A stretch of DNA of 64,000 nucleotides from Enorma phocaeensis (GCF_016901575.1 NZ_JACJKQ010000003.1:124001-188000); one strand, 5' to 3'; counted from the first letter of the stretch, positions 7,875-64,000 are shown. Numbers and translations are program-made. The notes: generated by a model from the letters alone, not told the origin.

Positions 7875-7895
7875 AGCGCCTCGAGAGGAGAGAAC

Positions 7896-8576: not shown

Positions 8577-8604
8577 GGTCTAGAGCCCCTCGAGGGATCT
8601 GTCC

Positions 8605-9021: not shown

Positions 9022-9025
9022 ACCT

Positions 9026-10279: not shown

Positions 10280-10296
10280 CCTGCCGAAGACGCTTC

Positions 10297-10890: not shown

Positions 10891-10986
10891 GAGCCCTCCT
10901 GGAAGAAACGGAGCGAGTCTGGGCATAATGGGTTAAGAGTCTGCTCAGTCGCTCCCGTTTAGCGACCGGACTGCCCTGCTGACAAG

Positions 10987-11010
10987 TGTAGCGTTTCTGT
11001 GCGCTACAAT
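10987..11010 (+). promoter_or_regulatory. Inverted repeat over the -10 of the response regulator gene
   Basis: TGTAGCG (10987-10993) and CGCTACA (11002-11008) form a perfect 7-bp inverted repeat with 8 bases between. The right arm overlaps a -10-like TACAAT at 11005-11010. This placement fits an operator; no good -35 at the usual distance is seen. Confidence 0.4.
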
Positions 11011-11047
11011 AGGTTTGTTCTTCCGGATGAGACAAGGGGGCCCAGAC

Positions 11048-11770
11048 ATGGCTTCGGACGCAAGAAAGATCCTGCTCGTTGAGGACGAGAAGGCCATTCG
11101 CGACGCTGTCGCGGCATATCTCGAGCGCGAGGGCTATTGGGTCGTGGGCGTTGGCGACGGACAGTCCGCCGTCGAGGAGTTCGAGAAGCATCAGTTCGAC
11201 CTCATCGTACTCGACCTCATGCTCCCCAAGCTTTCGGGCGAGCGCGTGTGCCGCGCCATTCGCGACACCTCGGATGTTCCCATCATCATGCTTACGGCAA
11301 AAGGCGAGGTTGAAGACCGCATCATCGGCCTCGAGCTCGGCGCCGACGATTACCTCATCAAGCCGTTCAGCCCGCGCGAGCTCGTCGCCCGCGTGCGTGC
11401 GCTGTTCCGCCGCGCCCATCAGAGCGATGAGCCGCAGGTCGAAGTGCTCGATTTCGGTGACCTCGTGATCGATATCTCGGGCCATAAGATTCTGGTCGAA
11501 GGCCGTGAGGTCGACCTCACCGCCTCTGAGTTCAAGCTGCTCACCACCCTCGCCCGTCATCCTGGGCGCGTCTACAACCGCATGGAGCTGGTTGAGAAGG
11601 TGCTCGGCTATGACTTCGAGGGCTACGAGCGCACCATCGACAGCCACGTGAAGAACCTGCGCGCCAAGCTGGGAGATGATCCCAAGAAGCCGAAGTGGCT
11701 CTATACCGTTCATGGTGTCGGCTATCGCTTTGAGGCCCCCCAGCAGCCTGCAAAGGAGAAGACGGAGTAG
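11048..11770 (+). CDS. OmpR/PhoB-family response regulator
   Basis: 240 residues from the ATG at 11048 (AAGGGGG upstream; an earlier in-frame ATG at 11015 lacks a site). Receiver domain 1-120: acidic pair in LLVEDE, phospho-acceptor Asp56 in IVLDLMLPKLSG, Thr in IIMLTAKG, Lys in DYLIKPFSP. The C-terminal winged helix (ELVEKVLGYDF, RTIDSHVKNLRAKLGDD, VHGVGYRFE) is the OmpR type. The kinase gene follows 7 bases after the stop. The pair resembles the PhoP/RegX3/MtrA group of general envelope or phosphate regulators, but the signal is not deducible here. Confidence 0.92.
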   Translation: MASDARKILLVEDEKAIRDAVAAYLEREGYWVVGVGDGQSAVEEFEKHQFDLIVLDLMLPKLSGERVCRAIRDTSDVPIIMLTAKGEVEDRIIGLELGADDYLIKPFSPRELVARVRALFRRAHQSDEPQVEVLDFGDLVIDISGHKILVEGREVDLTASEFKLLTTLARHPGRVYNRMELVEKVLGYDFEGYERTIDSHVKNLRAKLGDDPKKPKWLYTVHGVGYRFEAPQQPAKEKTE

Positions 11771-11777
11771 CTGGTCT

Positions 11778-13415: not shown

Positions 13416-13433
13416 CTGTCTGTTTGGGCCGCC

Positions 13434-13456
13434 GCTGGCATGCTCGGTATGCCAGC
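13434..13456 (+). terminator. Hairpin between kinase gene and purC
   Basis: GCTGGCAT (13434-13441) pairs with ATGCCAGC (13449-13456) around a 7-base loop. It is followed by TCCCTATTCG rather than a clean T-run, so termination would be weak. Confidence 0.45.
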
Positions 13457-13491
13457 TCCCTATTCGTTCGTTCGATAGGAGTTGATCCTCA

Positions 13492-14379
13492 GTGACTTCC
13501 ATGGAGCGTCGCCCCGATTCTCGCGGTAAGGTTCGTGACATCTATGAGGCGGGCGACAACCTGCTGATGGTCGCCACCGATCGCATCTCGGCTTTCGACT
13601 ATATCCTTCCGGACGAGATTCCCTTCAAGGGCGAGGTGCTCAATCGCATCTCGGCGTTCTGGTTCAACAAGTTTGCCGACCTGGTTCCCAATCATCTGGT
13701 GAGCATCGACGTCGACGATTTCCCCGCCGAGTTCGCCGAGTATCGCGACTACCTGTCGGGCCGCGCCATGTTGGTGCGTCGTGCCGAGCCGATCATGATC
13801 GAGTGCATCGTGCGCGGCTATCTCACCGGTTCCGGCAAGAAGACCTACGATGCGGACGGCACCGTCTGCGGCATCAAGCTTCCCGCCGGTCTCACCGAGG
13901 CGTCGAAGCTCCCTGAGCCGCTGTTCACCCCTTCCACGAAGGCGGCGATCGGCGACCATGACGAGAACATCTCGTTTGACCGCACGGTCGAGCTCGTGGG
14001 CGCTGATATTGCGGAGCAGATTCGCGACCTGTCGCTTAAGATCTACACCGCTGCTGCCGAGTATGCTGCCACCCGCGGCATCATCATCGCAGACACGAAG
14101 TTCGAGTTCGGTGTCATCGACGGCAAGGTGACGCTCATCGACGAGTGCCTCACTCCCGATTCAAGCCGCTTCTGGCCTGCCGCCTCTTATGAGGAGGGCA
14201 AGGTCCAGCCCAGCTACGACAAGCAGTTCGTACGTGACTGGCTGCGCGCCAATTGGGATATGACCGGCGAGACCCCTCATCTGCCCGCCGAGGTGATCGA
14301 GGGAACGTCTGCGCGCTATCGCGAGGCGTACGAGATCATCACCGGCGAGCCGTTTGTAAGCATGAAGGAGAGCAAGTAA
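13492..14379 (+). CDS. purC: Phosphoribosylaminoimidazole-succinocarboxamide synthase
   Basis: 295 residues. GTG start at 13492 with AGGAG nine bases upstream; an ATG three codons later is the alternative. The enzyme joins CAIR and aspartate with ATP to give SAICAR, which PurB (start of the window) then cleaves. Recognisable elements: GKVRDIYEAGDNLLMVATDRISAFD at the N-terminus, CIVRGYLTGSGKKTY, and the SAICAR synthetase signatures IADTKFEFGVIDGKVTLIDE and TPDSSRFWPA. The length (~295) is that of the longer actinobacterial/yeast-like form. The next gene begins directly after its stop codon. Confidence 0.95.
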   Translation: MTSMERRPDSRGKVRDIYEAGDNLLMVATDRISAFDYILPDEIPFKGEVLNRISAFWFNKFADLVPNHLVSIDVDDFPAEFAEYRDYLSGRAMLVRRAEPIMIECIVRGYLTGSGKKTYDADGTVCGIKLPAGLTEASKLPEPLFTPSTKAAIGDHDENISFDRTVELVGADIAEQIRDLSLKIYTAAAEYAATRGIIIADTKFEFGVIDGKVTLIDECLTPDSSRFWPAASYEEGKVQPSYDKQFVRDWLRANWDMTGETPHLPAEVIEGTSARYREAYEIITGEPFVSMKESK

Positions 14380-15057
14380 GTGAGTACGCGCAGCGCCAAC
14401 AACAAGCGCACCCAGACCAAGGAGTATACGGGCATGGGCCGAAAGTCCGCTGCCTCCGCCAAGCCTGCCCGCGCCGCCGGAGGCTCGGTGCGCGTGGTGC
14501 CGGCCTCCTCGAAGGCTCGCCGCAAAGAGGCGGAGCGCGGAGAGTCGCTTGCCGGTCTGTCGCGCGAGGAGAAGCGCGCCCGCAAGCAGGAAGAGCGCCG
14601 TCGCGAAGACCGCGTCTACACGGCTTCGAACATCATGCTCAAGAAGGATCCCGAGTACAAGAAGAAGCGTCGCAACTTCTGGATCATGCTCGGCATCGGG
14701 CTGGTGTTCATCATCGCGGTGTGGATCATGCTGTTCGGCATGGACGAGGAGATGGTCCAGTCCACCTACGCCATCCAGATCGCCGGCGTGATCATCTCGT
14801 ATGCCTTCATCATCGGCACGTTTATCTATGACTTCGTCAAGATTCGTCCTCTGCGCAACTTCTATCGAGCGCAGGCGGAGGGCATGCCCGAGAAGAAGCT
14901 GACCCAGCTCATCGAGCAGGACGCAGCGACCTCGTCGCGTGATAAAAAGGATGCCGACGCGAAGGGATCCGAGCCGGTAAAGGTCGCCGACGCTGCTCCC
15001 GAGAACGCCCCGGTCAAGAAGTCCGGACGCAAGAAGGATCATCGCTCTCGCCGCTAA
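14380..15057 (+). CDS. Two-helix membrane protein, unknown function
   Basis: 225 residues starting at the GTG directly after the purC stop; AAGGAGAG sits nine bases upstream, so the two genes are co-translated. The first ~100 residues are strongly basic and Ala/Arg/Lys-rich. Two membrane helices follow (RNFWIMLGIGLVFIIAVWIML and QIAGVIISYAFIIGTFIY), and a charged cytoplasmic tail ends in KKSGRKKDHRSRR. The basic ends suggest both termini lie inside, possibly near nucleic acid or membrane phospholipid. I cannot name a family. A hairpin follows. Confidence 0.75.
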   Translation: MSTRSANNKRTQTKEYTGMGRKSAASAKPARAAGGSVRVVPASSKARRKEAERGESLAGLSREEKRARKQEERRREDRVYTASNIMLKKDPEYKKKRRNFWIMLGIGLVFIIAVWIMLFGMDEEMVQSTYAIQIAGVIISYAFIIGTFIYDFVKIRPLRNFYRAQAEGMPEKKLTQLIEQDAATSSRDKKDADAKGSEPVKVADAAPENAPVKKSGRKKDHRSRR

Positions 15058-15094
15058 TGTCGGCGCCGGGTGATGCAGACGACCAAAACAAGAG

Positions 15095-15133
15095 GGGCGG
15101 TCGTGGGACGATGTAAGTCTCGCGACCGCCCTT
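15095..15133 (+). terminator. Hairpin after the purC operon
   Basis: GGGCGGTCG (15095-15103) pairs with CGACCGCCC (15123-15131) with about 19 bases between; a short CTTAT follows. It is a probable partial terminator before the aminopeptidase gene. Confidence 0.5.
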
Positions 15134-15154
15134 ATGCATGAAAAGGAGGAAGAT

Positions 15155-16435
15155 ATGATTCGAGCCGCGCTGACGGTGAGTGACGCCCGCTCGGGAATGA
15201 AGGCCCTGGCGCCCAAGATCGAGCGCTATGCACGCCTGATCATGCGTCAGGGCGTCAACGTGCAGCAGGGGCAGGAGGTCGTGGTCAACGCACCGGTCGA
15301 GACCGCTTCCTTTGTGCGCGTGCTGGTGAAGTGCGCGTACGAGGCGGGTGCGGGCCACGTGACCGTCATCTGGAGCGATGACGTGGTGACGCGCCTCACC
15401 TATGAGCACGTCGAGCTTTCGTGGTTCGAGACGGTTCCCTCTTGGCAGCGCGAGCAGCTCGACTCGCTCGCCAAGGACGGCGCATGCTTCGTGTTTGTCG
15501 AGGGCGCCGACCCCGAGGCCCTGAAGGGCATCGACCCGGCAAAGCCCGCCGCAAGCTCGAAGGCGAAAAACACCCAGTGCCGCGTGTTTCGTCGCGGGCT
15601 CGACTTTAACATCAACCCCTGGTGCATCGCGGGCGCGCCGGTGGCGGCATGGGCGCGCACGGTATTCCCGGGCATGGAGGACGAGGTCGCCATCTATAAG
15701 CTGTGGTGTTCGATTCTCTCGGTCGCCCGCGCCGACGGCGAGGATCCCGAGAGCGATTGGGAGCTGCATGATGCGACCTTCGAGAAGAATCTGCGCTTCC
15801 TGAACGACCATCATTTCGATCGCCTCCACTACAAGGCCGACAACGGCACCGATCTTGTGGTCGGGCTCACCGATCGCCATGTGTGGGAGGGCGGCTGTTC
15901 TGCCACGCCCGACGGCCACCCCTTCTTCCCCAACATCCCCACCGAGGAGGTCTTCACGTCTCCCGATTGCGAGCGCGTCGACGGGGTGGTGCATTCCGCG
16001 CTGCCGCTCATTCACCAGGGGAACAAGGTCGACCGCTTCTGGCTGCGCTTCGAGGCCGGCCGGGTGGTGGATTTTGGTGCCGAGGTCGGTCTCGAAACCC
16101 TGCGCTCCATCATCGAGCGTGACGAGGGCTCAAACCGCTTGGGGGAGGTGGCGCTCATCTCCAAGAACACGCCGATTCGCGAAAGCGAGATCCTGTTCTA
16201 CGACACGCTCTACGACGAGAACGCGAGCTGCCACCTGGCGCTGGGAATCGGTTTTCCGGAATGCTACGAGGGCGGCTATGAGATGACGTCCGAGGAGCTG
16301 CGCGAGCATGGTGTCAACATGTCGACGACGCATGTCGACTTCATGATCGGCACCGACGACCTCGACATCACGGGCATCACCGCTGATGGACGCGAGGTGC
16401 CGGTATTTGTGAACGGCCAGTGGAGCTGGGAGTAA
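15155..16435 (+). CDS. Peptidase family M29 aminopeptidase (AmpS/PepS-like)
   Basis: 426 residues from the ATG at 15155, with AAAGGAGGAAGAT in front; an ATG at 15134 has no site. M29 enzymes are cytosolic two-metal aminopeptidases. The metal-site segments are visible: a Glu in LGEVALI, His/Tyr in FYDTLYDENASCHLALG, and MSTTHVDFMIGTDDLDI near the end carrying the His-x-Asp ligands. The N-terminal segment (YARLIMRQGVNVQQGQEVVVNAPVE) is typical of the family. It stands alone between a hairpin and tRNA-Lys and probably takes part in general peptide turnover. Confidence 0.92.
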   Translation: MIRAALTVSDARSGMKALAPKIERYARLIMRQGVNVQQGQEVVVNAPVETASFVRVLVKCAYEAGAGHVTVIWSDDVVTRLTYEHVELSWFETVPSWQREQLDSLAKDGACFVFVEGADPEALKGIDPAKPAASSKAKNTQCRVFRRGLDFNINPWCIAGAPVAAWARTVFPGMEDEVAIYKLWCSILSVARADGEDPESDWELHDATFEKNLRFLNDHHFDRLHYKADNGTDLVVGLTDRHVWEGGCSATPDGHPFFPNIPTEEVFTSPDCERVDGVVHSALPLIHQGNKVDRFWLRFEAGRVVDFGAEVGLETLRSIIERDEGSNRLGEVALISKNTPIRESEILFYDTLYDENASCHLALGIGFPECYEGGYEMTSEELREHGVNMSTTHVDFMIGTDDLDITGITADGREVPVFVNGQWSWE

Positions 16436-16484
16436 ACGTCGAGACATGGCGGTAGAGAATGGTCCGTGTTACAATCACCCATGC

Positions 16485-16560
16485 GGGCCGTTAGCTCAGC
16501 TGGCAGAGCAGGGGACTTTTAATCCCAAGGCCCAGGGTTCGAACCCCTGACGGCCCACCA
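16485..16560 (+). tRNA. tRNA-Lys(TTT)
   Basis: 76 bases including an encoded CCA. Acceptor stem GGGCCGT/ACGGCCC, D-stem GCTC/GAGC, anticodon loop CTTTTAA (anticodon TTT), and T-arm CAGGG-TTCGAAC-CCCTG. The outermost anticodon-stem pair is G-A; the other four pair. A -10-like TACAAT lies ten bases upstream (16470-16475). Confidence 0.96.
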
Positions 16561-16593
16561 TAGGAACGGATTCCGAGCTGTGCTCGGATGGAG

Positions 16594-16625
16594 AGAGGCG
16601 AGGCGGCCATGGTCACCTCGCCTCT
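16594..16625 (+). terminator. Hairpin after tRNA-Lys
   Basis: AGAGGCGAGG (16594-16603) pairs perfectly with CCTCGCCTCT (16616-16625) around 12 bases. It lies 33 bases downstream of the tRNA, without a strong T-run. Confidence 0.5.
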
Positions 16626-16715
16626 TACCATACATGCTGCTGACCAAGCGCAGGCGGTCTTGTGCGACACGGTGAAGCACGGAGACGATGCTGCGGCGTG
16701 ACGGGAGGTGTCCCC

Positions 16716-17309
16716 ATGACGCGCGAGGAAGCGCTGAGGGTGCTGGGGCTCAAAAGCGACGCCACGCCGAGTGAGGTGCAGGTAGCCTATCGCGAGCTTG
16801 CCCAGATGCTTCATCCGGATAAATTCGGCGACAACAAGCGCCTGCGCGAGCGCGCCGAGCAGCAGATGCGCACCATCAACGAGGCGCGCGACGTGCTGAT
16901 GAAGGGGTCGCGCGCATCATCTGGCGCCACCCGCCCCGGCAGGGGTTCAAAGACGTCGCGGCGAAGGGACATGACGCCCTCGGAGATCGTCTTTGAGGCC
17001 GAGGCTCGAGCCCATGCGGCGGAGACCGCGCGCCTCACCGTCGTCGCCCAGCTGCGCACGATGCGTGAGCGCCGCCGGTCCATGGCGGTGATGGCGGCCG
17101 TCGCCGCCGTGGTGGCCATCGTGTTTTCTCGCATGCGAGGGGGAATCGGCGGCATCGTGGCATCGATCGCCACCATGCTCGTCGTATGGGGCGTGGTCGA
17201 CGTCGTATCCATGGGAACCCAGGTGTCAGCGCTTGAATCGCGCTCGCGCGACCTGCTCCAGGCCCGTGACGCCGCTCGGAAGATCGCAGAAGAGGCAAGG
17301 AAGCTCTAG
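16716..17309 (+). CDS. J-domain membrane protein
   Basis: 197 residues from the ATG at 16716 (GGGAGGTG upstream). Residues 1-65 form a J domain: REEALRVLGLKSDATPSEVQVAYRELAQMLHPDKF, with the HPD tripeptide that stimulates DnaK ATPase. A basic linker follows, then two close hydrophobic segments (MAVMAAVAAVVAIVF; GIGGIVASIATMLVVWGVVDVVSM) and a short coiled-coil-like end. There is no G/F or Zn region, so it is not DnaJ itself. It would recruit DnaK to the membrane; the client is unknown. Confidence 0.85.
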   Translation: MTREEALRVLGLKSDATPSEVQVAYRELAQMLHPDKFGDNKRLRERAEQQMRTINEARDVLMKGSRASSGATRPGRGSKTSRRRDMTPSEIVFEAEARAHAAETARLTVVAQLRTMRERRRSMAVMAAVAAVVAIVFSRMRGGIGGIVASIATMLVVWGVVDVVSMGTQVSALESRSRDLLQARDAARKIAEEARKL

Positions 17310-17493
17310 AAGGCACATGCTAGAATGACGTTGCTCAACGCAAAAAGCAGAAGGGTCGTAAGCCAAAACGGCTCCGAGCATGATGCGAAGCTGCCTGGGC
17401 TCTCGCGCATAGGCCGCTATCGAGCGCAGCATAGCCGGTTGCCAATCCTTAGCCTCTTTGCCGTGTTACGAAATTCTTGAAAGGATCTGCGAC

Positions 17494-17946
17494 ATGAGCC
17501 ATGACGCAAGCAACACCAATGCCGTGTCGCCCCAGCTGGACGAAATGGTCTGCGACCTTATCGGCGCCATGCTGGACTCCCTTGCCGCAGGCGAAGACCC
17601 CGGTGTCGTGGCGTGCCTGGAGGATGCGTCGTCCACGCGGGTAGAGGTGGCCTTTACCGATGATGGCGAAGAGGCCTGCCTGGAGGCCGCTCGCACATAT
17701 ATCAAACGCTCGAAAAAGGGGATTCCCGCCGAGAATGTGGGGCCGGCGGCTCGTTATGCCGTCGCCTATGCCGGCTGCGTGCAGGACGAAGACGGGGCCT
17801 ACGCGGATGCCCTTCTGGTGAGCTTCTATGAGCGAGGCCTTTCCACCGGCTACTCGGCCTATGTTCTGTATGACGGCTTCGGGGACGAAGACCAATTTGT
17901 ATGGAGTGATCCGCAACCTGCCGGAGAAGAGCCACCACTCCTCTAA
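17494..17946 (+). CDS. Small acidic protein of unknown function
   Basis: 150 residues; AAAGGA lies before the ATG at 17494. The protein is acidic (many Asp/Glu, ending AGEEPPLL), with no signal peptide or membrane helix. I recognise no family. A -10-like TAGAAT at 17320-17325 may give it its own transcript; otherwise the 184-base gap in front shows nothing clear. Codon use is native. Confidence 0.6.
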   Translation: MSHDASNTNAVSPQLDEMVCDLIGAMLDSLAAGEDPGVVACLEDASSTRVEVAFTDDGEEACLEAARTYIKRSKKGIPAENVGPAARYAVAYAGCVQDEDGAYADALLVSFYERGLSTGYSAYVLYDGFGDEDQFVWSDPQPAGEEPPLL

Positions 17947-18070
17947 TTTTCGTTTACTATTATGAGCGTTTGCGCTAGGTGTCCTTTCTTGCATGTCACC
18001 TGTAGGTTCTTGATATGCCACGAAGGATTCTCGCGCAGTTTGTGTGCATATGTCGCCTTTGCTGACGCGG

Positions 18071-18144
18071 GCCGCGGAGGGTTCTTGCCGTTCGCGACTT
18101 CTGAGCGTAGCGAGGCTGAGCGAGCAGCAAGAACCCTCCGCGGC
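18071..18144. repeat. 18-bp perfect long hairpin in the typA leader
   Basis: GCCGCGGAGGGTTCTTGC at 18071-18088 is repeated in exact inversion at 18127-18144 around a 38-base loop. The loop contains a near-repeat, CTGAGCGTAGCGAGG then CTGAGCGAG. No T-tract follows, and the right arm ends 32 bases before the typA ATG, so it lies in the predicted leader. The stretch 17947-18070 holds nothing else I can support. Confidence 0.8.
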
Positions 18145-18176
18145 ACCGCGGGGCAGATAGGTACAAGGAGCACCAC

Positions 18177-20015
<1,839 letters not shown>

Positions 20016-53289: not shown

Positions 53290-54324
53290 ATGAGCTTTCG
53301 TGACAACCTTCAGTATCTGCGCGCCACACGCAATATGACTCAAGAGCAGCTTGCCATGTTGCTGGGCGTTTCCCGCCAATCTGTGACCAAGTGGGAGGCG
53401 GAGAAAAGCTATCCCGAGATGGACAAGCTTCTTAAGCTCTGCCAGATTTTTGAATGCAGCCTGGACGACCTTGTGCAGGGCGACCTTACCGGACGCGATC
53501 CGGGAATCCAGACGGCCGTTCCAGCAGGTCCTCCTTCTGACGTCTGCGGCTACGATGAGCACCAGCGCCGTCTTGCCCGCCAAGTTCCTGCAGGCATCGT
53601 CTCGATACTTGTGGGCTGTGGCCTGGGATTTTTGGCAGAGGGCCGCTTCACCCTGTTCGGAGCAGATGCCGACATTCTTACGATCGCCCTCATATTGCTG
53701 GGCGTGTTGGTTGGCCTGGCGTTCTTCATCCCAGCGGGAATGGAGCATGCGGCCTTTATGAAGGCGCACCCGTATATCGAGGACTTTTACACAGAAGGCG
53801 ACCGCGCCTCCGCGCGTAAAGCGTTCACACGTGCCATGATCGCCGGCATCGCGTTCATCTTTGCGGGAGCCCTTAGCATCATGGTGCTGGGGGAGAGCAG
53901 GGCAACAGAGCGAGAGGGACTTTGTCTGCTGCTGTGCCTTATTGCGGCGGGCGTGTGGCTCATCGTTCGCTATGGCATGCTGCTTGGCCGTACCAACGTC
54001 GCCGAGTACAACAAAAGCGTGGCGGAGGAGCTCGAGGTTGAAGACATCGTCAATGCGAAGGTGGATGAAGAGGTCCGCTCCGCGTTGCTTGAAAAGAAGC
54101 GCTCGGACGACAAGGTGGGTGCCGTCTGCGGCGTCATCATGATCCTTTCGACCATCGTGGGCCTCGTGCTCCTGTTTATCCCGGTGTTTTCTGCCCCAGA
54201 CATGGATGCGTTCAACCCTGAGGGCACGTCTGCCATGTGGTTCTGGATGGCATGGGTTGTGGGCGGCATGCTCTGCGGCATCGTTGCCATCCTCATGAAC
54301 GCATTTGGCAAAAAGGACGAGTAG
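53290..54324 (+). CDS. XRE-family HTH protein with membrane domain
   Basis: 344 residues from the ATG at 53290 (GAAAGG upstream). Residues 1-65 form an XRE HTH: LRATRNMTQEQLAMLLGVSRQSVTKWEAEKSYPEMDKLLKLCQIF. A linker and about six hydrophobic segments follow, grouped as two pairs before and one pair after a charged helix (VAEELEVEDIVNAKVDEEVRSALLEKKR). Such HTH-membrane proteins often regulate neighbouring ABC transport genes. Here a gap of 101 bases leads to the unusual ABC-2-type cluster, all on the same strand. Confidence 0.85.
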   Translation: MSFRDNLQYLRATRNMTQEQLAMLLGVSRQSVTKWEAEKSYPEMDKLLKLCQIFECSLDDLVQGDLTGRDPGIQTAVPAGPPSDVCGYDEHQRRLARQVPAGIVSILVGCGLGFLAEGRFTLFGADADILTIALILLGVLVGLAFFIPAGMEHAAFMKAHPYIEDFYTEGDRASARKAFTRAMIAGIAFIFAGALSIMVLGESRATEREGLCLLLCLIAAGVWLIVRYGMLLGRTNVAEYNKSVAEELEVEDIVNAKVDEEVRSALLEKKRSDDKVGAVCGVIMILSTIVGLVLLFIPVFSAPDMDAFNPEGTSAMWFWMAWVVGGMLCGIVAILMNAFGKKDE

Positions 54325-54425
54325 GGTTGCGTTGAGCCCTCGCCCATCCTGTTATCCGTCTCGCCAAGGCGTTACAGGGTACAAGCGGGATAGATGTCTT
54401 GGCGGTCGGGACGGGGAGGTGCGGG

Positions 54426-56000
54426 ATGGCGCGGCGCATGCGATACGTGTTGCGCATGGTATTCTCCCACCCTGCCGTTTTGGCCTGCGTTCTTGTTGCG
54501 GCTGCGCTTGCAGCATGGCCCGCCATGGGTGTGCGGCCTTCCTTGCAGGATGAGGCGCTGTCGGTCGAAGAACAGCTTCCGTACGGCATGTATCGTTCGC
54601 TTGAAGAGGCGCGCGATAGCCTTGCGGGAAACCTCCGCCTTATGCGCGGCTTCGCCGAACGTGGCGAGCTGGCGCTGTCTCAGATGAGACTCATGGCAGC
54701 AGAAGAGAAGCGCCTGGAGGCACTCGACGAGGCGCTTTCGGCGTCCGATGTCAAAGGCTTCCTGGAGGCTGCGGCACAGTACTACGAACTGCAGCCGTCC
54801 GGAGCGGCTGGGGCTCAGGCACTGCAGTTCCATGCACTCTCCAAGCTTGAGGACCCTGCGTTCTACACGCTGCCCCAGACGATGCCGGCGGCCATATATC
54901 TTGCATCGCGGCAGTTTATCCTGTCGCCTCTGGTGTTTGCCGCGGGCGGTCTTATGGGACATGAGGGGCTTCTGTCGCGTGGCTACGACGGGTCGCTCGA
55001 CTTTCTTGTTTGGGCGATCCCTATCGTTGCCGCGGCCCTTGTGGGTGCGGGATTCGGGTGGCGAGCATTTCATGTTCGGGGCGTCTGCGGTTTGAGGCGG
55101 ATGGGACGTTCGGTGGTGTCGGGCGCGGTGAGCGGGGCATCTGCAGCGCTTGCCGTCACGGTTCCCGCTTGCTTGCTTGCGTGCGCGCACAATGGAATCG
55201 GCGACTTGGCCTACCCTGTGATTGTTCAAGCGGCCGACGCCACCTATGGCGTTACGACGGTGGGCATGGTTCTCATCGAGCGCGCCGCCCTGCTTTGCGG
55301 GATGTCGTTGGTGGCGGCCTGCCTGGGGGCGGCGTCATGCAGGGTAGCGGGCGGGACTGCTCCTGCGGCCTGTGTGTGCTCAGCAGGGCTCGTGCTTGCT
55401 GCTCAGCCGTGGTATTTCACGATATTTAGTCCGTTGCGAGACGTTGCGCACCTGCTTCCTGCGACTTACGCCGACCCCGGGCGTGTTACCGGGTCTGCCG
55501 ACGCTTTTGCAACGGCTGCCACCCCGCCGCAGCTCTCCGGTGCCGGCGTTGCCTCGGGTATCTTGACGTTTGCCGCTGCTGCTGCGGGCATCATCGCGAT
55601 GACGCTGGCAGTTCGAGGTCTTGCCGAGGGGGCCGAACGCTGGCGACTGGCGCTTTGCCAAGGTCGCTCGTACCGCATCGGCCTTATCGCGCCCACATGG
55701 TCTCGCCTTGCCGAGCCAGGTTCGCCTTCGCCTGCCTCCATGCTTCCGGGAGACCCGCTCGCACACGGCCCGCCTGCGCGGATTCTCGTGGCAACGTCAC
55801 CCATCGGATTTCTCAGCGCACGTTGGCGCAAGCTGCACGCGAGCATGTGCGCCATGACACATGTGCCCGAGGCCTCTTCCCTGGCATCGAGGCTTCGCTT
55901 ACTCGCCTCTCTCAACGCAATAGGTATTCCCCCTCCTGCCGGCGTATGTCGCTGGAATGGATGGCGCTGTTGCGACACGTTGCCCGCTCGCGGCAGCTGA
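54426..56000 (+). CDS. ABC-2-like membrane protein, one module
   Basis: 524 residues from the ATG at 54426 (GGGGAGGTG upstream). Layout: one N-terminal helix (VFSHPAVLACVLVAAALAAW), a ~130-residue extracytoplasmic helical domain ending in ALSKLEDPAFYTLPQTMPAA, then five or so helices. The conserved inner signature NGIGDLAYPVIV precedes two more helices. The same order and two signatures recur twice in the next protein, so the two are homologous modules. The last ~110 residues are a polar cytoplasmic part. With a single ATPase encoded nearby, it is probably one permease half. Confidence 0.7.
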   Translation: MARRMRYVLRMVFSHPAVLACVLVAAALAAWPAMGVRPSLQDEALSVEEQLPYGMYRSLEEARDSLAGNLRLMRGFAERGELALSQMRLMAAEEKRLEALDEALSASDVKGFLEAAAQYYELQPSGAAGAQALQFHALSKLEDPAFYTLPQTMPAAIYLASRQFILSPLVFAAGGLMGHEGLLSRGYDGSLDFLVWAIPIVAAALVGAGFGWRAFHVRGVCGLRRMGRSVVSGAVSGASAALAVTVPACLLACAHNGIGDLAYPVIVQAADATYGVTTVGMVLIERAALLCGMSLVAACLGAASCRVAGGTAPAACVCSAGLVLAAQPWYFTIFSPLRDVAHLLPATYADPGRVTGSADAFATAATPPQLSGAGVASGILTFAAAAAGIIAMTLAVRGLAEGAERWRLALCQGRSYRIGLIAPTWSRLAEPGSPSPASMLPGDPLAHGPPARILVATSPIGFLSARWRKLHASMCAMTHVPEASSLASRLRLLASLNAIGIPPPAGVCRWNGWRCCDTLPARGS

Positions 56001-56019
56001 AGACGAGGGAGATGGATGC

Positions 56020-58503
56020 ATGACTACTCATATGAGATGGAAAAGGAATGGGGCAAAGCCAGGCGGAGGGCGTGCGCGCCGTCCCCGCCAGGCACGTGCC
56101 TTGGCACGATATGCGGCGACGCTGTTTTGTCTTGCGGTCCGAAGCCCCTTGTTGTGGGTGTCGGTGCTCGTCGCCTCTGCGCTGCTGTGGGTCGGTGTGG
56201 CGAACATGCCCGCCCTTGCGGTTAGCGGCCCCTATGACAGGCAGTCCATGCAGACGAACTTCGACCTGTATGAGCAGCAAGAGGCGAGCGCCTCTCAGAG
56301 GGAATGGCTGGCGCGGGAGCCGTCCTCGCTTCTCGAGGAGCGGGCGCAGGAGGAGTTCGTCGATCGCGGTCGCGTGTACGACCTCATGCGCGCAGCCACC
56401 GATGACCGCTCCTATATCAAGGCGATCCTGGAACTGTTGCGCCATGACGAGCAGTATCCCTATGCCGGTTTCTCCCATGCCGAGAACGAGGCTTCGCAGG
56501 AATTCTATCAGCAGCTGTTGAGGCTCGAGGACCCTCAGCTATACGAAAGCATCCAAGAGATGCCGGCCATCGCGTTTTTTACCTATCGATGGCAGGAATG
56601 GTTCTCGCTTCCCATCGTGAGCCAGCTGCTGGCGTCGCTTGCGGCGGGCTCCGCCGAGCCCTCATCTTCTGCGGCGTCGTTTTCGCCCGAGGCACACCTT
56701 GTCATGATGGTGCCCGCGGTGGTGGCATCCGCCTGCGTCTTTCGCTGGAAGACGCGCCGACGCCTACTTGACGCAGTTCCACTTGTTCGCGGCGCGGCGT
56801 CCACGGTCGAGGTCTTGACCGCTGCCGCGTGCTCGTTGCTTGCCATGGCTGCGGTTGTGCTGCCGGGGCTGGTGTGGCTTGCTGCGAAAAACGGGCTGGG
56901 CAACCTTTCGTATCCTGTGGTGTATTTCCAGGCAGGCGAGGTTGTTGCGACAACGGCGGGCGAGGTGATCTTCCAGGGGGCGAGCCTCTGCGTTCTCGCA
57001 ACGCTCGTGATTGCCTTGGTGCTCGAATTGTCGTGCTGCGCGACCCATCGTATGACGCCCGGGGTGATAGTTGCGTCTGCGACCGTGCTCGCCCCTTTGA
57101 TTCCCGATTATTTCGACCGGCTGTCTCCTCTGGCAAGCGCGGCACCCTGGCTGCCGTCGACGTATCTCGGTGTCGATAAGGTCGTCGGCGGCTGGAGCTA
57201 TTTCATCAACACCGAAAACGATGTTCTGCCCATCGCGGGTTGCGACTATGCGCATGGGCTGCTTGTCTTGGGCGGCACGGCCCTCGTGCTTGTGACCCTC
57301 GTGACCGCGGTGCATCTGTTTTGTCATGCGCTCCGCTTGCACCGGATGGGGAGCGTCGGCGGCCCTTCGGGCGGCTCGGCATCTCGCGGAGGCGCACATG
57401 CCCTCGAGCACAGCGGCGCGGCGTCGAGTTCGCGCGATGGGGGAGCGATGCGTGCCAAAGGGGCCCGCTTCTCCCCTCGGCTGTCTGCGCGAGGGACGCC
57501 GGATGTGCGGCGTGCCTTCCGCGATGGCGCGCGAGACCTGCCCGCGCCGGCCGCGACGGTGCGCTCGACTACGGCCGCATATCTTACCGTCTTGCTGAGA
57601 GGGGCTGCGATTCCTGCTGCAGTCGTTTGTGAGGCTGCTGTGCTGGTGCTTCCGGCAGTCGTGCCCTTCCGTACGGGCATGGAGGCGTATACCCAGGATG
57701 CGTATGTGTCCCGATATCAGGAGCACAGTCGGGCTCAGGGAGGGGACCTTGCCGCGTTTTCCGACCCGGCTTTCGCCCGGCGCGATATCGAGCTGCTGGC
57801 AGATGCGGCGTGGGCGCCCGACGCGCGTTCGTTTGCCGTTGCTGCCGCGGCGTATGAAGGGTGGTGGGCGGCACGTCTTGAAGAAGGGGCCGTTTTGGCT
57901 GCCGCCGCAGAAAACCCCGGGATCGCACGCAGCCGCGAGGAGTTCTATCGCCGACTGTCTGAGCTGGACGACCCATCCATCGCGCTTGTCGGCTCCCAGC
58001 TTTCGCCCGTTCGGCTCGTTGCCTTTGATGCGCGCCTGTATCCAGCCCTTCTGGGGGCTCTGCCCTACTTCGCTGCGGGGGCAATGGCGATCTCTGCGAC
58101 GCGGCGCGGCCTGCTGAGACAGGTTCCCGTTCGTGGATGGAGGCGCGCCCTTTCGGTGGCCTCCGCAACAATCGTCGTGGGGCTTGTGGGCGCGGCTCTT
58201 GCGTGGCTGCCTGTGCTTGCCGTGGCGCTCATACGCTGTGGGTGGGGAGAGGTGGCATATCCCGTCATCGTCTGGGATGCCGCCAGCCCTGGGTTGTTGC
58301 CTTGGCTTTCCGCGTTGGTCGGCGAGGCGGGGGCTTCACTGCCGGCTGTGGCCACGGCGGGCGAGCTTGCCCACCTCTACGTTGGAAGGCTGGCCGTCAC
58401 GGGCCTCATCGCGTCGGTCGCGTCCTCTGCCATCTCTGTCGTCGTCGGCCGAACCGTACGGGTTGCTGGCGCCGAGCAGGAAATCTCTCGAAAGGAGCTG
58501 TAG
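56020..58503 (+). CDS. ABC-2-like membrane protein, two tandem modules
   Basis: 827 residues from the ATG at 56020 (GAGGGAG upstream). Module 1 (~30-450): helix, outside domain ending QQLLRLEDPQLYESIQEMPA, helices, NGLGNLSYPVVYF. Module 2 (~525-827): helix, outside domain ending RRLSELDDPSIALVGSQLSP, helices, CGWGEVAYPVIVW. The two halves are joined by a ~70-residue basic, Ser/Arg/Gly-rich linker. The halves resemble each other and the preceding protein, which indicates duplication and fusion. The gene starts 19 bases after the previous gene and ends 2 bases before the ATPase gene. I know no described system with this arrangement. Confidence 0.7.
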   Translation: MTTHMRWKRNGAKPGGGRARRPRQARALARYAATLFCLAVRSPLLWVSVLVASALLWVGVANMPALAVSGPYDRQSMQTNFDLYEQQEASASQREWLAREPSSLLEERAQEEFVDRGRVYDLMRAATDDRSYIKAILELLRHDEQYPYAGFSHAENEASQEFYQQLLRLEDPQLYESIQEMPAIAFFTYRWQEWFSLPIVSQLLASLAAGSAEPSSSAASFSPEAHLVMMVPAVVASACVFRWKTRRRLLDAVPLVRGAASTVEVLTAAACSLLAMAAVVLPGLVWLAAKNGLGNLSYPVVYFQAGEVVATTAGEVIFQGASLCVLATLVIALVLELSCCATHRMTPGVIVASATVLAPLIPDYFDRLSPLASAAPWLPSTYLGVDKVVGGWSYFINTENDVLPIAGCDYAHGLLVLGGTALVLVTLVTAVHLFCHALRLHRMGSVGGPSGGSASRGGAHALEHSGAASSSRDGGAMRAKGARFSPRLSARGTPDVRRAFRDGARDLPAPAATVRSTTAAYLTVLLRGAAIPAAVVCEAAVLVLPAVVPFRTGMEAYTQDAYVSRYQEHSRAQGGDLAAFSDPAFARRDIELLADAAWAPDARSFAVAAAAYEGWWAARLEEGAVLAAAAENPGIARSREEFYRRLSELDDPSIALVGSQLSPVRLVAFDARLYPALLGALPYFAAGAMAISATRRGLLRQVPVRGWRRALSVASATIVVGLVGAALAWLPVLAVALIRCGWGEVAYPVIVWDAASPGLLPWLSALVGEAGASLPAVATAGELAHLYVGRLAVTGLIASVASSAISVVVGRTVRVAGAEQEISRKEL

Positions 58504-58505
58504 CC

Positions 58506-59201
58506 ATGTTGTCATTTTGCCATCTCACATTGGGTCACGGCTCGGTGACGCTGCTTGAGGATGCGTCGTTGACGCTTGAGCGCGGCGAGGTTGTTGGCCT
58601 CGTGGCGCCAAACGGCTTTGGCAAAACAACCCTCCTTACCACCCTTGCAGGGATGGGCGGCGCGCGAGCCCGTGGAAAGATCAGCGTTCAGGGCGTTCCC
58701 GCCCACGATGGCGCTCGCCTGCGCGCTACGGTGTTCTATGCGCCGGGCGACGCGTCGCTGTTGTATCCCTCATGTACGGTGCTCGACCATGTTCGCATGG
58801 CGCGAAGCCTGTGGGCGTCTCCCTGTTCTGTGGAGGCTGTCGCGCGAACCTGCGGCATCGACGGATTCATGAGAAAGCGGGTAAGGACGCTGTCGCAAGG
58901 TATGAAGCAGCAGCTTACGCTTGCTGTGGCCTATGCCACCAATGCGCCGTGCTTGTTGCTCGACGAGCCGATGAACGCGCTCGATCCAACGAACGTGCAG
59001 CGCAACACGGCCATTCTGCGCGCCCTCGCCCGCCGCGGAAAGACGATCGTCATGAGTTCCCACATCCTGGAAAACGTCGATGAGGTGAGTGACCGCATCG
59101 TATTCATAAGCGATAAGAGCCTGATTGTCGCCGACGCCCGCTCTTCGGGTGGCGAGCGGGCGCGCGACATATATCGTCGGCTCTATCGCAACGCCTCCTG
59201 A
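58506..59201 (+). CDS. ABC transporter ATPase of the three-module system
   Basis: 231 residues from the ATG at 58506 (AAAGGAG upstream). Walker A is APNGFGKTT (first Gly replaced by Ala), Q-loop region FYAPGDASLLYPSCTVLDH, signature LSQGMKQQLTLA, Walker B CLLLDEPMNALD, and H-loop SSH. This is the exporter/bacitracin-type (CcmA/drug) ATPase size. It is the only ATPase encoded in the cluster, so it should energise the three membrane modules upstream. Confidence 0.88.
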   Translation: MLSFCHLTLGHGSVTLLEDASLTLERGEVVGLVAPNGFGKTTLLTTLAGMGGARARGKISVQGVPAHDGARLRATVFYAPGDASLLYPSCTVLDHVRMARSLWASPCSVEAVARTCGIDGFMRKRVRTLSQGMKQQLTLAVAYATNAPCLLLDEPMNALDPTNVQRNTAILRALARRGKTIVMSSHILENVDEVSDRIVFISDKSLIVADARSSGGERARDIYRRLYRNAS

Positions 59202-59383: not shown

Positions 59384-59689
59384 ATGGGACTCAAAGCCGA
59401 GGGGGCACTTGATTTCGATTTCGAGGGGTTCCTGGGGTACCTGCGCTCCAAGACTCGTGTGTTCATGGACGTTGACGGCGGTGAGTACTACATTACGCAC
59501 ACCGACGGGTACTGGCGCGTTCAGGACTGCTCCAAACTTAACGACAAGGGTCGTTTTACCGATTGCTCCGAGCTTGTAACCACCATGCCTGAGCTTATCG
59601 AGCTGCCGTTCCTTGACGGCAAGAGCATCCATGACCTCTTCCATGACGCGACCTTCTACGAGTCGGTCCAGGAGGGCTGGTCGCTCTAG
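59384..59689 (+). CDS. Small hypothetical protein
   Basis: 101 residues; GCGAGGAGG precedes the ATG. Acidic, no signal or membrane helix. Sequence features: GGEYYITHTDGYWRVQDCSKL, two short Asp/Glu/Phe-rich segments and a C-terminal DATFYESVQEGWSL. I recognise no family. A strong terminator follows, so it is monocistronic. Confidence 0.65.
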   Translation: MGLKAEGALDFDFEGFLGYLRSKTRVFMDVDGGEYYITHTDGYWRVQDCSKLNDKGRFTDCSELVTTMPELIELPFLDGKSIHDLFHDATFYESVQEGWSL

Positions 59690-59776: not shown

Positions 59777-59872
59777 ATGCGATGCCGTCGTGTGGAAATG
59801 CGGCTGCATGGCAGGAGCCTTGCGCTTGAGTGACTGCCCAGAGGCCCCTTCTTCGATTCTCCATGAGGCTTG

Positions 59873-59901
59873 TTGACCGTAATCCGAAATCGGACTACCA
59901 T
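59873..59901 (+). promoter_or_regulatory. Promoter and operator of the MarR gene
   Basis: -35 TTGACC (59873-59878), 17-base spacer, -10 TACCAT (59896-59901). The spacer contains TCCGA-AA-TCGGA (59883-59894), a palindrome placed to let a bound repressor block RNA polymerase. Confidence 0.65.
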
Positions 59902-59947
59902 CGGGCCCGAGGCATTTTTATTCAAGCATGGTGAGAGGGGGATGCAT

Positions 59948-60559
59948 ATGGACGATGCCGATCCGCGGACGGCGTGCGGCGGGGAGCAAACCCATGTCGA
60001 TGACGCGCCGTGGGATCCGGATAGGTTCCAGGCGGATTCTGGTCCGCGGCAGCTGGACTATCTCTACAACGAGATCGATCAGCTCTATCACGTATTTGCC
60101 TATGGCTGCGGGATCTCCGACTGCGCGTATTGGATGCTCTACGACCTCCAGATCGCCGGCGGCTCCCTGCCGGTTTCGACGTTGACCGCGTCGTGGTCCT
60201 ATAGCAAGCAGACGATCAACTCTGCGCTCAAGTCACTTGAGGCACGCGGTTTGATAGAGCTCGATTTTGTCGAAGGAAGCCGGAAAAGCAAGGTGGCGAG
60301 CTTCACCAAGGCTGGCCGCGTGTTTTCCCGCGAGCGTATCATCCCCGCCATCGAAGCGGAGGAGCGGGCCTTTTCAACCTTGGCCTCGCGCGAGCGCGAA
60401 CAGTTGGTGGTCCTCGTCAAACGCTATGTGGATGCGCTCGATGCAGAGATCGGACGTGCCCACGAGTGCGTGGAGCGCGTCGAGGGCAAGCAGGAAGATG
60501 CCGTGCGCGCCTCCTGCGACCTGTGGGGCGAAAGCGAGCCCTGTCCGGGCGAGCATTGA
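59948..60559 (+). CDS. MarR-family transcriptional regulator
   Basis: 203 residues from the ATG at 59948 (GAGAGGGGG six bases before; an ATG at 59942 is too close). Winged helix: ISDCAYWMLYDLQIAGGSLPVSTL, SKQTINSALKSLEARGLIELDF, and an antiparallel-wing segment SRKSKVASFTKAG. Both ends extend beyond a minimal MarR, with a Cys/Glu-rich tail. It precedes a two-gene ABC exporter by 95 bases and likely represses it and itself through the palindrome in its promoter. Confidence 0.88.
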   Translation: MDDADPRTACGGEQTHVDDAPWDPDRFQADSGPRQLDYLYNEIDQLYHVFAYGCGISDCAYWMLYDLQIAGGSLPVSTLTASWSYSKQTINSALKSLEARGLIELDFVEGSRKSKVASFTKAGRVFSRERIIPAIEAEERAFSTLASREREQLVVLVKRYVDALDAEIGRAHECVERVEGKQEDAVRASCDLWGESEPCPGEH

Positions 60560-60654
60560 CCGGGCTGCGTCCCGTCCGTCCCCTGTTCGGGGTTCTCCGG
60601 CTTTTTGTCGATAGCCATCTACCCATTCAGACCTAGCGAAGGAGTATTCGTCGT

Positions 60655-62565
60655 ATGAGAACGCTGCTGCGCTTCCTCAAGCCATATCGATTGCAGACCG
60701 CCATCGTGCTCGCGGCCCTTGCCGTGAACCTTGCGGGCGTGCTGCTGGTGCCTACGATTCTCGCCAACATGATCAACATCGGCATCTCCACGGGAGATTT
60801 CGACTACATCGTGACGCAGGGCATGTACATGCTCGTCGCCGCCTTTGTGTCGGGTGCGGGCGCATTCGCATGCAATTATTTCTGCGCCGATCTGTCTACG
60901 AAAGTTGGACGCGACATCCGAAACGCGGTCTACGATGCCTCGCTCGCCTTCTCGGGCGGTGACTTCGAGCAGTTTGGAACGGGCTCCATGATCACGCGCA
61001 CGCTCGGCGACGTGAACGTGATCCAGCAGGCAATCACCATGACCATCCAGATGATGTTGCCCGTACCTTTTGCGGCGGTGATCGGCGTGGCGCTGGCCTG
61101 CTCGATCGATATGCAGATGGGGCTCATGCTGGCGTGCTTCGTGGCGGTGGTCGCCGTGATCGCCGTGGCCAGCGTGAGCAAGGCGGCGACGATTTTCCAG
61201 AAGCTGCAGCAGTTTATCGACCGCATGAACGTGCGTCTGCGCGAGAGCATCACCGGCGTGCGCGTCATTCGCGCGTTTGGAAAAGAAGAGGTCGAGCGCA
61301 AGAGCCTCGACGAGGCGTTCAGCTCGTTTGCGACCAACGCGATCCGCGTGAACTGGATCTTTGCCACGTTCGACTGCTCGAGCTTCTTCATCATGAACAT
61401 CGCGGAGGTCGCAACCATCTGGCTCGGCGGCAATCGGGTTGGCGCGCATGCGATGGAGATCGCATCGATTTCGGCGTGCGTCGAATACGCCATGCTCATC
61501 TTGTTCTTCATCATGATGGCCCAGATCAGCGCGCTCATGCTGCCCCGCGCGCTCGTATGTCTCGAGCGCTGCCGCCAGGTGATCGACCACGAGCCGTCGA
61601 TTGCCGACGGCGCGTGTGGGGCCTTGCCGGCGAGGGATGCGGCGGGTGACAGCGAGGGCGCCGCCGAGAAGGCCTGCCTGAAAGCGGCTTCGCCAGGCGT
61701 GCCTCCCATGTCCGCTTTGACGTCTCGGGCGACCGATGGCGCCCAAGGCGACGTCGTCGCTCACTTCAGCAACGCCTCCTTCCGGTTTGCCGACGCTGAT
61801 GAGGACACGCTGCACCACATCAACTTCATGTGCCGCCGCGGCACCACGACGGCCATTATCGGACCCACCGGTTCGGGCAAGTCGACCATCGCCAAGATGC
61901 TCCTTCGCTTCCACGACGTCACTGACGGCCGTGTGGAGTTGTGCGGCCTCGACGTGCGTGACCTTACGCAGGAGGCGCTGCGCGAGCATATCTCGTATGT
62001 TCCGCAGAAGGCGTGGCTCTTTAGCGGAACCATCGCAGACAATCTGCGGTACGGCGCGGCGCACGCCACCGACGACGAGCTGTGGCACGCGCTCGACGTC
62101 GCGCAGTCGGGCTTTGTGCGCGAGCTGCCCTGTGGCCTTGCAAGCCGTGTGGCGCAGGGAGGAACCAACTTCTCGGGCGGCCAGCGGCAGCGCCTCTCTA
62201 TCGCCCGCGCGTTGGTGAAGAGGGCCGACCTCTACATCTTTGACGACAGCTTCTCGGCGCTCGACTTTAAAACCGACGCCGCGCTGCGCCATGCGCTTGC
62301 CGAAGAGGTCGCCGACGCCGCCGTTCTCATCATCGCCCAGCGCATCAACACCATCCTCACGGCGGATCAGATCGTCGTGCTGAAAGACGGCTGCATTCAG
62401 GGGCTGGGTACGCACGAGGAGCTCATGCGTACCTGCGAGGCCTACCGCGAGATCGCGCGGTCGCAGCTGCGTTCCGACGAGCTCGAGGCGCTGACGGGTG
62501 CGGCAGGGGATGCAAAGGACGATGAGATCGACGGGCGAGACGCGGCTATGAAGGGAGGCGAGTAG
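60655..62565 (+). CDS. ABC exporter half-transporter, degenerate ATP site
   Basis: 636 residues; GAAGGAG precedes the ATG. Six-helix exporter domain in 1-300 (YRLQTAIVLAALAVNLAGVLLVPTILANMINIGIS), then an unusually Ala/Gly/Ser-rich ~60-residue linker (about 325-365) and the ATPase: Walker A GPTGSGKST, signature FSGGQRQRLSIARAL, Walker B YIFDDSFSALD, H-loop AQRI. The catalytic Glu is Asp and the H-loop lacks His, as in the degenerate half of heterodimeric exporters such as TM287/288. Its partner follows two bases after the stop codon. Probable multidrug or lipid export. Confidence 0.92.
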   Translation: MRTLLRFLKPYRLQTAIVLAALAVNLAGVLLVPTILANMINIGISTGDFDYIVTQGMYMLVAAFVSGAGAFACNYFCADLSTKVGRDIRNAVYDASLAFSGGDFEQFGTGSMITRTLGDVNVIQQAITMTIQMMLPVPFAAVIGVALACSIDMQMGLMLACFVAVVAVIAVASVSKAATIFQKLQQFIDRMNVRLRESITGVRVIRAFGKEEVERKSLDEAFSSFATNAIRVNWIFATFDCSSFFIMNIAEVATIWLGGNRVGAHAMEIASISACVEYAMLILFFIMMAQISALMLPRALVCLERCRQVIDHEPSIADGACGALPARDAAGDSEGAAEKACLKAASPGVPPMSALTSRATDGAQGDVVAHFSNASFRFADADEDTLHHINFMCRRGTTTAIIGPTGSGKSTIAKMLLRFHDVTDGRVELCGLDVRDLTQEALREHISYVPQKAWLFSGTIADNLRYGAAHATDDELWHALDVAQSGFVRELPCGLASRVAQGGTNFSGGQRQRLSIARALVKRADLYIFDDSFSALDFKTDAALRHALAEEVADAAVLIIAQRINTILTADQIVVLKDGCIQGLGTHEELMRTCEAYREIARSQLRSDELEALTGAAGDAKDDEIDGRDAAMKGGE

Positions 62566-62567
62566 CC

Positions 62568-64000
62568 ATGACGATTGAGAAGACCAAGCAGACGGCTGCC
62601 GAGTTGCAGGACATGCAAGACGATGCCATCAAACAGCTTGATCCCACCGAGCCCGATCCGTCGGGCGCTCCAGACCCCGAGCCTGAGCAAGAGCTCGAGG
62701 TGCCACGCGACCCGGCGGCAACGCTCGTGCGCCTGTGGTCGGTTTCTGTCGGCGAGCATTGGCGCTTTGCCGTGGTGCTGGCATGCATCGTGTGCTACAC
62801 CTTCGCGCATATCGCCGCCCCTGCCTACAGCGCACACGTGATCGACCTTCTGTGGGGCAACATCCAGGAGGCCTTTGCTCGCGGCGAGGCCTTCACGATC
62901 GGTTGGGATACCGGTGGGCGTGAGCTCTTGATCTTTGTCGGCATCTGGACGGTCGCCTGGGTGTTCTACACCATCCAGAACTTCACCATGGCGAGTTTTG
63001 CCGAACGGCTCAATCTCAAGCTCAGGCGCCTGATCGCCGAAAAGCTCAACAGGCTGCCCCTCAAATACTATGACGCCCACAAGCCCGGCGACATCATGAG
63101 CCGCGCGACCAACGACCTCGATAAGGTTTCCGAGGTGCTTCAGCGCGGTCTGCTTTCCATGCTCATCGCGATCGGCTCGGTCATCGGTGCCTCCATCATG
63201 ATGGTGCGGCTGAACGTGGTGCTTGCCCTTGTGTTCTTCGCGTTCGCGGCGGCATCGGTTGTCATGACGCGTTTCGTGGCTAAAAAGACCCTCGTCCTGG
63301 CGGCAGAGCAGCAGCGCGCGGTAGGCGTGCTTACCGGTCATGTCGAGGAAGCGTACTCCGGGCGCATCGTCATCAAGGCGTTCAACCAGGAGCATGAGAG
63401 CTCAAAGCGCATTCACGAGGCCACGCAGCGCCTTGCGGACACGATGCGCAAGACCGACTTCGTCACCAACGTCGTCGCGCCCATGGTGCGCTGCCTCGTG
63501 CGCTTTGCCCAGGTGGTCCTTGCACTTCTCGGCACGGGCTTCCTCATGCGGGGGCAGCTTACCGTCGGCACCTTGCAGGCGTTTTTCCAGTACGTGAACA
63601 CGGCTGCCGAGCCGCTCACGCAGTTCTCGCTCACCATGAACCAGCTGCAGAGCGCGCTTGCGGCGGTGGAGCGCGTCTTTGGCATCTTGGACGAGCCCGA
63701 GATCGAGCCGGATCCCGCCGAGCCGGCAGAGGTCGCCCGCCCGGTGCGCGGCCGCATTGCTTTCGAGCACGTGCGCTTCGGGTATGATCCCGAGCGCCCC
63801 CTCATGAAGGATGTGAGCTTTGTCGCCGAACCGGGCCAGAAGGTCGCCATCGTTGGCGCGACCGGCGCCGGCAAGACCACGCTCATCAACCTGCTTATGC
63901 GCTTCTACGAAATCGACGGCGGGCGCATCACGCTCGACGGGGTGGATACCCATGCGATGACCCGGGCAGACCTACGTCGAAACTTCGGCATGGTGCTGCA
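62568..64000 (+). CDS. ABC exporter half-transporter (3' end outside window)
   Basis: 478 codons visible from the ATG at 62568 (GGGAGGCG upstream); the frame is still open at the window edge. A ~50-residue acidic N-terminal extension (DPTEPDPSGAPDPEPEQELE) precedes six membrane helices. The exporter signature LPLKYYDAHKPGDIMSRATNDLDKV and the ATPase Walker A GATGAGKTT with Q-loop region NFGMVLQ are visible. It should be the consensus-site partner of the preceding half, though its Walker B and signature are not in view. Confidence 0.93.
   Translation, partial: MTIEKTKQTAAELQDMQDDAIKQLDPTEPDPSGAPDPEPEQELEVPRDPAATLVRLWSVSVGEHWRFAVVLACIVCYTFAHIAAPAYSAHVIDLLWGNIQEAFARGEAFTIGWDTGGRELLIFVGIWTVAWVFYTIQNFTMASFAERLNLKLRRLIAEKLNRLPLKYYDAHKPGDIMSRATNDLDKVSEVLQRGLLSMLIAIGSVIGASIMMVRLNVVLALVFFAFAAASVVMTRFVAKKTLVLAAEQQRAVGVLTGHVEEAYSGRIVIKAFNQEHESSKRIHEATQRLADTMRKTDFVTNVVAPMVRCLVRFAQVVLALLGTGFLMRGQLTVGTLQAFFQYVNTAAEPLTQFSLTMNQLQSALAAVERVFGILDEPEIEPDPAEPAEVARPVRGRIAFEHVRFGYDPERPLMKDVSFVAEPGQKVAIVGATGAGKTTLINLLMRFYEIDGGRITLDGVDTHAMTRADLRRNFGMVL

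Follow-up and report, generated by a model that had tools for sequence, protein, structure and literature searches.

A candidate ABC-2/type V exporter cassette of gut Coriobacteria with one ATPase and three related permease modules, one of them truncated

Lantibiotic immunity transporters such as LanFEG and CprABC combine one ATPase gene with two different ABC-2-type permeases of six transmembrane (TM) helices each, and the complex is likely 2:1:1 (PMC5786555). NsrFE1E2G of S. mutans has one ATPase with three permease polypeptides, of which NsrG, E1 and E2 contribute 6+2+4 = 12 TM helices and are in effect a split pair (PMC5786555). Type V exporters are described as 6+6, with re-entrant helices between TM5 and TM6 (PMC8386196). 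The locus analyzed here lies in a 64,000-nucleotide stretch (the window) of the 2.36 Mb genome of Enorma phocaeensis, where three tightly packed ORFs on the plus strand (54426-59201) were identified by translation: a permease with a single module (M1), a permease with two fused modules (M2-M3) and an ATPase, which starts two bases after the M2-M3 stop. The features of the cassette and its upstream neighbor are as follows:

53290-54324, plus strand: XRE-type gene with a membrane domain, 5' of M1, a flanking backbone gene
54426-56000, plus strand: gene for the M1 permease (524 aa), a complete ABC-2-like module of 6 TM with a cytoplasmic tail
54426-55640, plus strand: module part of M1, from the module HMM
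55191-55220, plus strand: M1 signature NGIGDLAYPV between TM3 and TM4, from translation and the 29-module alignment
55746-55775, plus strand: PGDPLAHGPP motif in the M1 tail, from comparison of M1 lineages
56020-58503, plus strand: gene for the M2-M3 permease (827 aa), a complete module of 6 TM joined to one cut short at 4 TM
56101-57342, plus strand: M2 module, full, 6 TM, from HMM domains, alignment and AF2
56890-56919, plus strand: M2 signature NGLGNLSYPV, from the alignment
57559-58482, plus strand: M3 module, truncated after TM4, where the HMM match ends early in every ortholog
58237-58266, plus strand: M3 signature CGWGEVAYPV, from the alignment
58506-59201, plus strand: ATPase (ABC_tran), 231 aa, PF00005 E 2.6e-23

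The cassette resembles LanFEG and CprABC in its gene content, and the best-scoring NCBIfam model for its ATPase is that for lantibiotic protection (TIGR03740), at 108.6 bits, which is far below the cut-off of 309.75. It differs from these systems in the large helical extracytoplasmic domain of its modules, in the third, truncated module fused to one permease, and in that neither a two-component system nor a lantibiotic gene adjoins it. An initial annotation of this DNA had considered two permeases sharing one ATPase to be odd in itself; the layout of LanFEG (PMC5786555) and the other one-ATPase forms found in the present family speak against that judgment, and its observation that only one small ATPase is encoded holds, with a single ABC_tran ORF at 58506-59201. 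NsrFE1E2G likewise has one ATPase, whereas the 16 TM helices of the cassette belong to three homologous modules on two polypeptides. Its unusual parts are the conserved truncated third module and the PGDPLAHGPP tail on M1.

Sequence comparison indicates that M1, M2 and M3 are homologous. Module profiles were built from other genomes only, with no window sequence, and the profile matching M3 held no M3-type sequence. They recovered M2 of the window at 1.6e-100, M1 at 7.9e-79 and M3 at 1.3e-24, whereas 50 shuffles of each module reached at most 3.7 bits, and no shuffle rose above about 5 bits; M1 and M2 are 28% identical over 409 columns (blastp E=6e-18). The initial annotation had proposed three copies of one module, one single and two as a fused pair. 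The kinship of the three regions was borne out (E 1e-100 to 1e-24), as was the arrangement of a lone M1 beside a fused M2-M3, but the third copy is not full and amounts to about three quarters of a module. The strings quoted for its two signatures, L-x-x-L-E/D-D-P and (N/C)G...YPV, are all present in the translations: the first reads LSKLEDP (M1), LLRLEDP (M2) and LSELDDP (M3), and in the NG-x-G...YP signature neither of the two glycines nor the proline varies across the 29-module alignment, while the tyrosine is almost invariant. In both M1 and M2 a connecting helix at the N terminus precedes TM1, and an extracytoplasmic helical domain lies between TM1 and TM2-6. Their AF2 models show the N-terminal helix and all six TM helices, with short helices between the fifth and the sixth (pLDDT 76 and pTM 0.71 for M1, with a low-confidence tail; 73.7 and 0.69 for M2-M3). 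The type V hallmark, an N-terminal amphipathic elbow helix together with re-entrant helices between TM5 and TM6, is thus seen in the M1 and M2 models and is lacking in M3. The modules diverge fast, with about 28-37% identity between genera and 29-37% for the M1 orthologs in nine genomes. Values of dN/dS from 0.22 to 0.44 across all modules show purifying selection; M1 and M2 lie at 0.22-0.30, and the ATPase, in informative pairs, at 0.12-0.17.

The same order of M1, M2-M3 and ATPase occurs in nine other genomes of Collinsella-type Coriobacteriaceae and Olsenella (Collinsella An2 and An7, C. tanakaei An368, Candidatus Coprousia avicola, two uncultured Collinsella and three Olsenella), so that the 1+2 layout is indeed kept in other Coriobacteriia, a point which the initial annotation had singled out for checking. 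The survey covered 60 relatives by regional retrieval and HMM scan, with a second search by ATPase alignment; P0003 as the sole query returned no relative in genome contigs, and the M2-M3 alignment offered no segment sufficiently conserved to serve as a query, so the ATPase alignment took its place. Because the layout is kept across several relatives, we regard the cassette as a real and conserved variant of a known exporter class, uncatalogued and apparently undescribed: Pfam and NCBIfam hold no family for M1 or M2-M3, in agreement with its earlier listing as an undescribed candidate, and a limited search of open-licence literature returned no description of such a cassette. Two genomes carry ATPase remnants. 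One of the same genus (G001) has 37 ATPase codons in the gap between the XRE gene and a small ORF, 70-78% identical (E 1e-14), and Collinsella An268 has an ATPase fragment that lacks Walker A and has no permeases beside it. The cassette was therefore once present in these genomes and has been lost at least twice, which makes it accessory. No match to it was found in a search of phages and plasmids, and a promoter scan gave a result no better than shuffles. PADLOC returned only generic HTH and ATPase matches, and so there is no sign of a defence system.

The module family extends beyond the cassette to 61 of the 249 genomes of the order (23 of 99 genera), where it also takes the form of a single module with an ATPase, two full modules with an ATPase, or a module and ATPase fused in one chain. 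These other Coriobacteriales members share the module HMM and the ATPase subfamily with the cassette but lack the truncated third module. In several Collinsella loci (L070-L073, L076, L078, L080) a module-ATPase half-transporter of ~602-614 aa lies directly downstream of a two-module permease and its ATPase. At another locus (L047 7217-12075, genome G027), a single-module permease and its ATPase precede a second ATPase and several proteins of 227-261 aa without a match, which may together form a larger exporter cluster. Outside the order, a 296-genome phylum sample gave only two marginal matches. A search of 12 genomes reached by ATPase similarity was empty. Among 398 genomes from the phylum to which a Lachnospiraceae record belongs, three matched (E about 1e-9 to 1e-10), and two of these three Bacillota genomes encode two-module permeases of ~850 aa, some of which have an ATPase gene immediately next to them. 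These fused pairs (L219, L220, L222) share with the cassette the module by profile, the two-module fusion, the GDW-YPI and SPFTYL motifs and, for some copies, the single adjoining ATPase; they differ in having no free third module and in an ATPase that retains the Q-loop glutamine (SYMQD). Tandem arrays of such permeases occur in two Bacillota genomes (L220, G589, 2-18500; L219, G628, 4631-10859), and the C-terminal ends of the array copies are near-identical, a pattern that gene conversion could produce.

We place the modules in the ABC-2/type V class of exporters, as the initial annotation's term ABC-2-like had implied. This placement is based on Foldseek matches and on the Bacillota link: the fused-pair permeases pass the cut-off of Pfam ABC2_membrane_2 (PF12679), and hhalign aligned the module profile to them at 97.3% (P 1.6e-11). 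No window protein matches a Pfam ABC-2 family directly, and one of the 29 family members matches ABC2_membrane_3 at 3.4e-4. Foldseek gave probabilities of 0.99 for PmtCD, 0.96-0.98 for KpsM, 0.96 for NosFY and 0.94 for ABCG5/G8, with weak E-values (0.17-0.7) and a consistent class. The top rows for the two-module model were pyrophosphatases, at a probability below 0.2, and a profile search of the module alignment against solved structures returned coiled-coil-type chance matches only. PmtCD, KpsMT, NosFY and the ABCG/ABCA transporters, the closest fold matches in the PDB, share the 6-TM module, elbow helix and TM5-TM6 re-entrant helices, but are canonical 6+6 transporters without a third module.

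Our main reading, to which we assign a probability of about 0.5, is that the genes at 54426-59201 encode one ABC-2/type V exporter in which an ATPase homodimer would power transport through a pathway formed by M1 and M2, after the likely 2:1:1 complex of LanFEG, with M3 as an accessory unit and protective efflux as the exporter's job. We infer that M1 is the partner of M2, in preference to an M2:M3 or an M1:M1 pair. M3, fused to M2, would form no half-channel of its own but would sit next to the pair with its helices and extracytoplasmic domain retained. The Walker A of the ATPase is VAPNGFGKTT, with the first glycine changed to alanine (the slight alteration previously noted), and its other motifs include Walker B LLLDEP, signature LSQGM and H-loop SSH; the Lys-Thr of Walker A, the signature, the glutamate of Walker B and the histidine of the H-loop, as expected of an active ATPase, are all present in the window and in the family alignment. 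The Q-loop glutamine is replaced (FYAPGD, 58734-58751, where PG aligns against PQ in CPQ of ABCA3); this position is not glutamine in any aligned ATPase of the family and its residues vary, which could mean altered coupling. The best guess for the job, a weak one, is a protective but non-essential role in which amphipathic or peptide antimicrobials would be expelled from the membrane. We favor it because TIGR03740 is the closest model, if well below its cut-off, because the cassette is accessory, and because the permeases evolve fast.

KpsMT, TarGH, ABCA and ABCG transporters export lipids, glycolipids or polymers. The top fold matches include KpsM, ABCG5/G8, ABCH, TarGH and ABCA7, the nearest solved ATPases are ABCA3, ABCA4 and NosF, and the topology of TM1, domain and TM2 is ABCA-like. 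A serious rival, if an unlikely one, is therefore an exporter of an envelope lipid, glycolipid or polymer whose extracytoplasmic domains hand over or gate the lipid. The patchy distribution and repeated loss of the cassette and the fast evolution of its modules argue against this, as does the fact that neither a glycosyltransferase nor a lipid gene adjoins it. PmtCD, a phenol-soluble-modulin exporter, is also among the best fold matches. We nevertheless consider it distinctly improbable that the cassette exports a peptide or protein that the cell itself secretes, encoded by a cargo gene elsewhere in the genome. A fused-pair permease with one ATPase is also found in AlbCD and SkfEF of B. subtilis (PMC11466899), but here no gene for a small secreted peptide adjoins, and the sole nearby small ORF (59384-59689) belongs to the backbone and is present without the cassette. 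The initial annotation had seen no adjacent peptide, lantibiotic or enzyme gene; the neighbors are the XRE gene, the small ORF, a MarR gene and two ABC half-transporters, and no substrate, peptide, immunity or biosynthesis gene adjoins the locus.

The truncation of M3 is a fixed property of the cassette. M3 lacks the end of the module with TM5, the re-entrant helices and TM6 in 10 of 10 loci, the window included; its HMM match ends at position 290-302 of 382 in every ortholog, and hydropathy and the AF2 model concur. In the cassette loci the stop of M3 adjoins the start of the ATPase gene or overlaps it, so that the absent part is not concealed in another frame. Judged by substitution rates, M3 is somewhat relaxed, yet selected: dN/dS is 0.32 in pairs that are better separated and 0.28-0.44 in the most closely related Olsenella pair, in which changes are few. 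Each cassette thus encodes 6+6+4 = 16 TM helices, and its gene layout holds three modules in place of the two described for type V exporters (PMC8386196), with which this conserved set contrasts. In the two uncultured Collinsella (L063 and L064, M2-M3 gene 7665-9983), M1 and M2 are near-identical, but the M3 proteins are 10% different and dS is raised there (0.16), the mark of a local exchange limited to this module.

In the module tree, M1, M2 and M3 form separate clades at 100/99, 100/98 and 100/99. M3 groups with the second halves of two-module relatives at 84/72 and M2 with the first halves at 82/51 (weak support), while M1 joins M2 plus the first halves at 93/91. The two placements with halves are suggestive, not firm. 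In the likeliest origin, M2-M3 would have begun as a fused pair, still two full modules in some relatives, and gained a free M1, after which M1 would have assumed the partner role and M3 lost TM5-6. These groupings, together with the complete two-module fused permease and ATPase in relatives such as G020, C. phocaeensis and C. aerofaciens, would also suit a cassette in which M2-M3 and the ATPase are the functional exporter, with M1 either added on as a subunit or acting as a second, homodimeric transporter that uses the same ATPase. We hold such an arrangement to be improbable, as M3 is without TM5, re-entrant helices and TM6 in every genome, and the re-entrant helices are a type V feature (PMC8386196). 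The free, fused and truncated versions of one module in related genomes offer a natural series for the gain of an extra half-transporter and its subsequent paring down under selection. With them, an uncatalogued family of permeases is named in Collinsella, Olsenella and other common gut Coriobacteria.

The other unusual part, the cytoplasmic tail of M1, is hardly alignable among lineages except for P/A-GDPLAHGPP, which is kept in all M1 lineages examined apart from C. tanakaei An368 (GDH in O. uli) and was not found in the scanned loci of other Coriobacteriales family members. Its conservation spans two bacterial families, and the DNA shows synonymous changes at nearly every codon, so the constraint acts on the protein. 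A frameshift in the tail, where another frame reaches the M2 start, was ruled out because PGDPLAHGPP and a PPP end are kept in the annotated frame in other genomes. The exporter might be obligatorily 6+6+4 over one ATPase homodimer, in which M3 with its extracytoplasmic domain serves as an asymmetric functional element (a gate, a lid or a sensor) and the M1 tail docks to a partner; we offer this as a tentative model that falls somewhat short of even odds.

The initial annotation had counted the XRE-membrane gene (53290-54324) as the regulator of the system. That this gene senses the substrate and controls the cassette is very improbable: it lies next to the cassette and points the same way in the window, in An2 and in C. 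tanakaei An368, but its orthologs (62-73%) occur in cassette-free genomes (G001, G003, G007, G008, G010) and lie on another contig in cassette-bearing ones (G005, G024, G026, G028). Because of this, and because the flanking order of glmS, LysR, YeiH, XRE, small ORF, MarR and two ABC genes is whole or nearly so without the cassette (G001, G006, G003, G008, G014), the comparison identifies it as a conserved backbone gene and not a part of the system. The MarR gene and two ABC half-transporters (ABC_membrane plus ABC_tran) that flank the cassette at 59870-64000 were likewise considered as partners and rejected as backbone genes also present without it. The 101-aa ORF at 59384-59689, without a Pfam match, lies between XRE and MarR in most genomes with the backbone set, cassette or not. 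The ABC pair is near the cassette in most loci, and in another genus the cassette sits on the opposite side of this pair, in convergent orientation.
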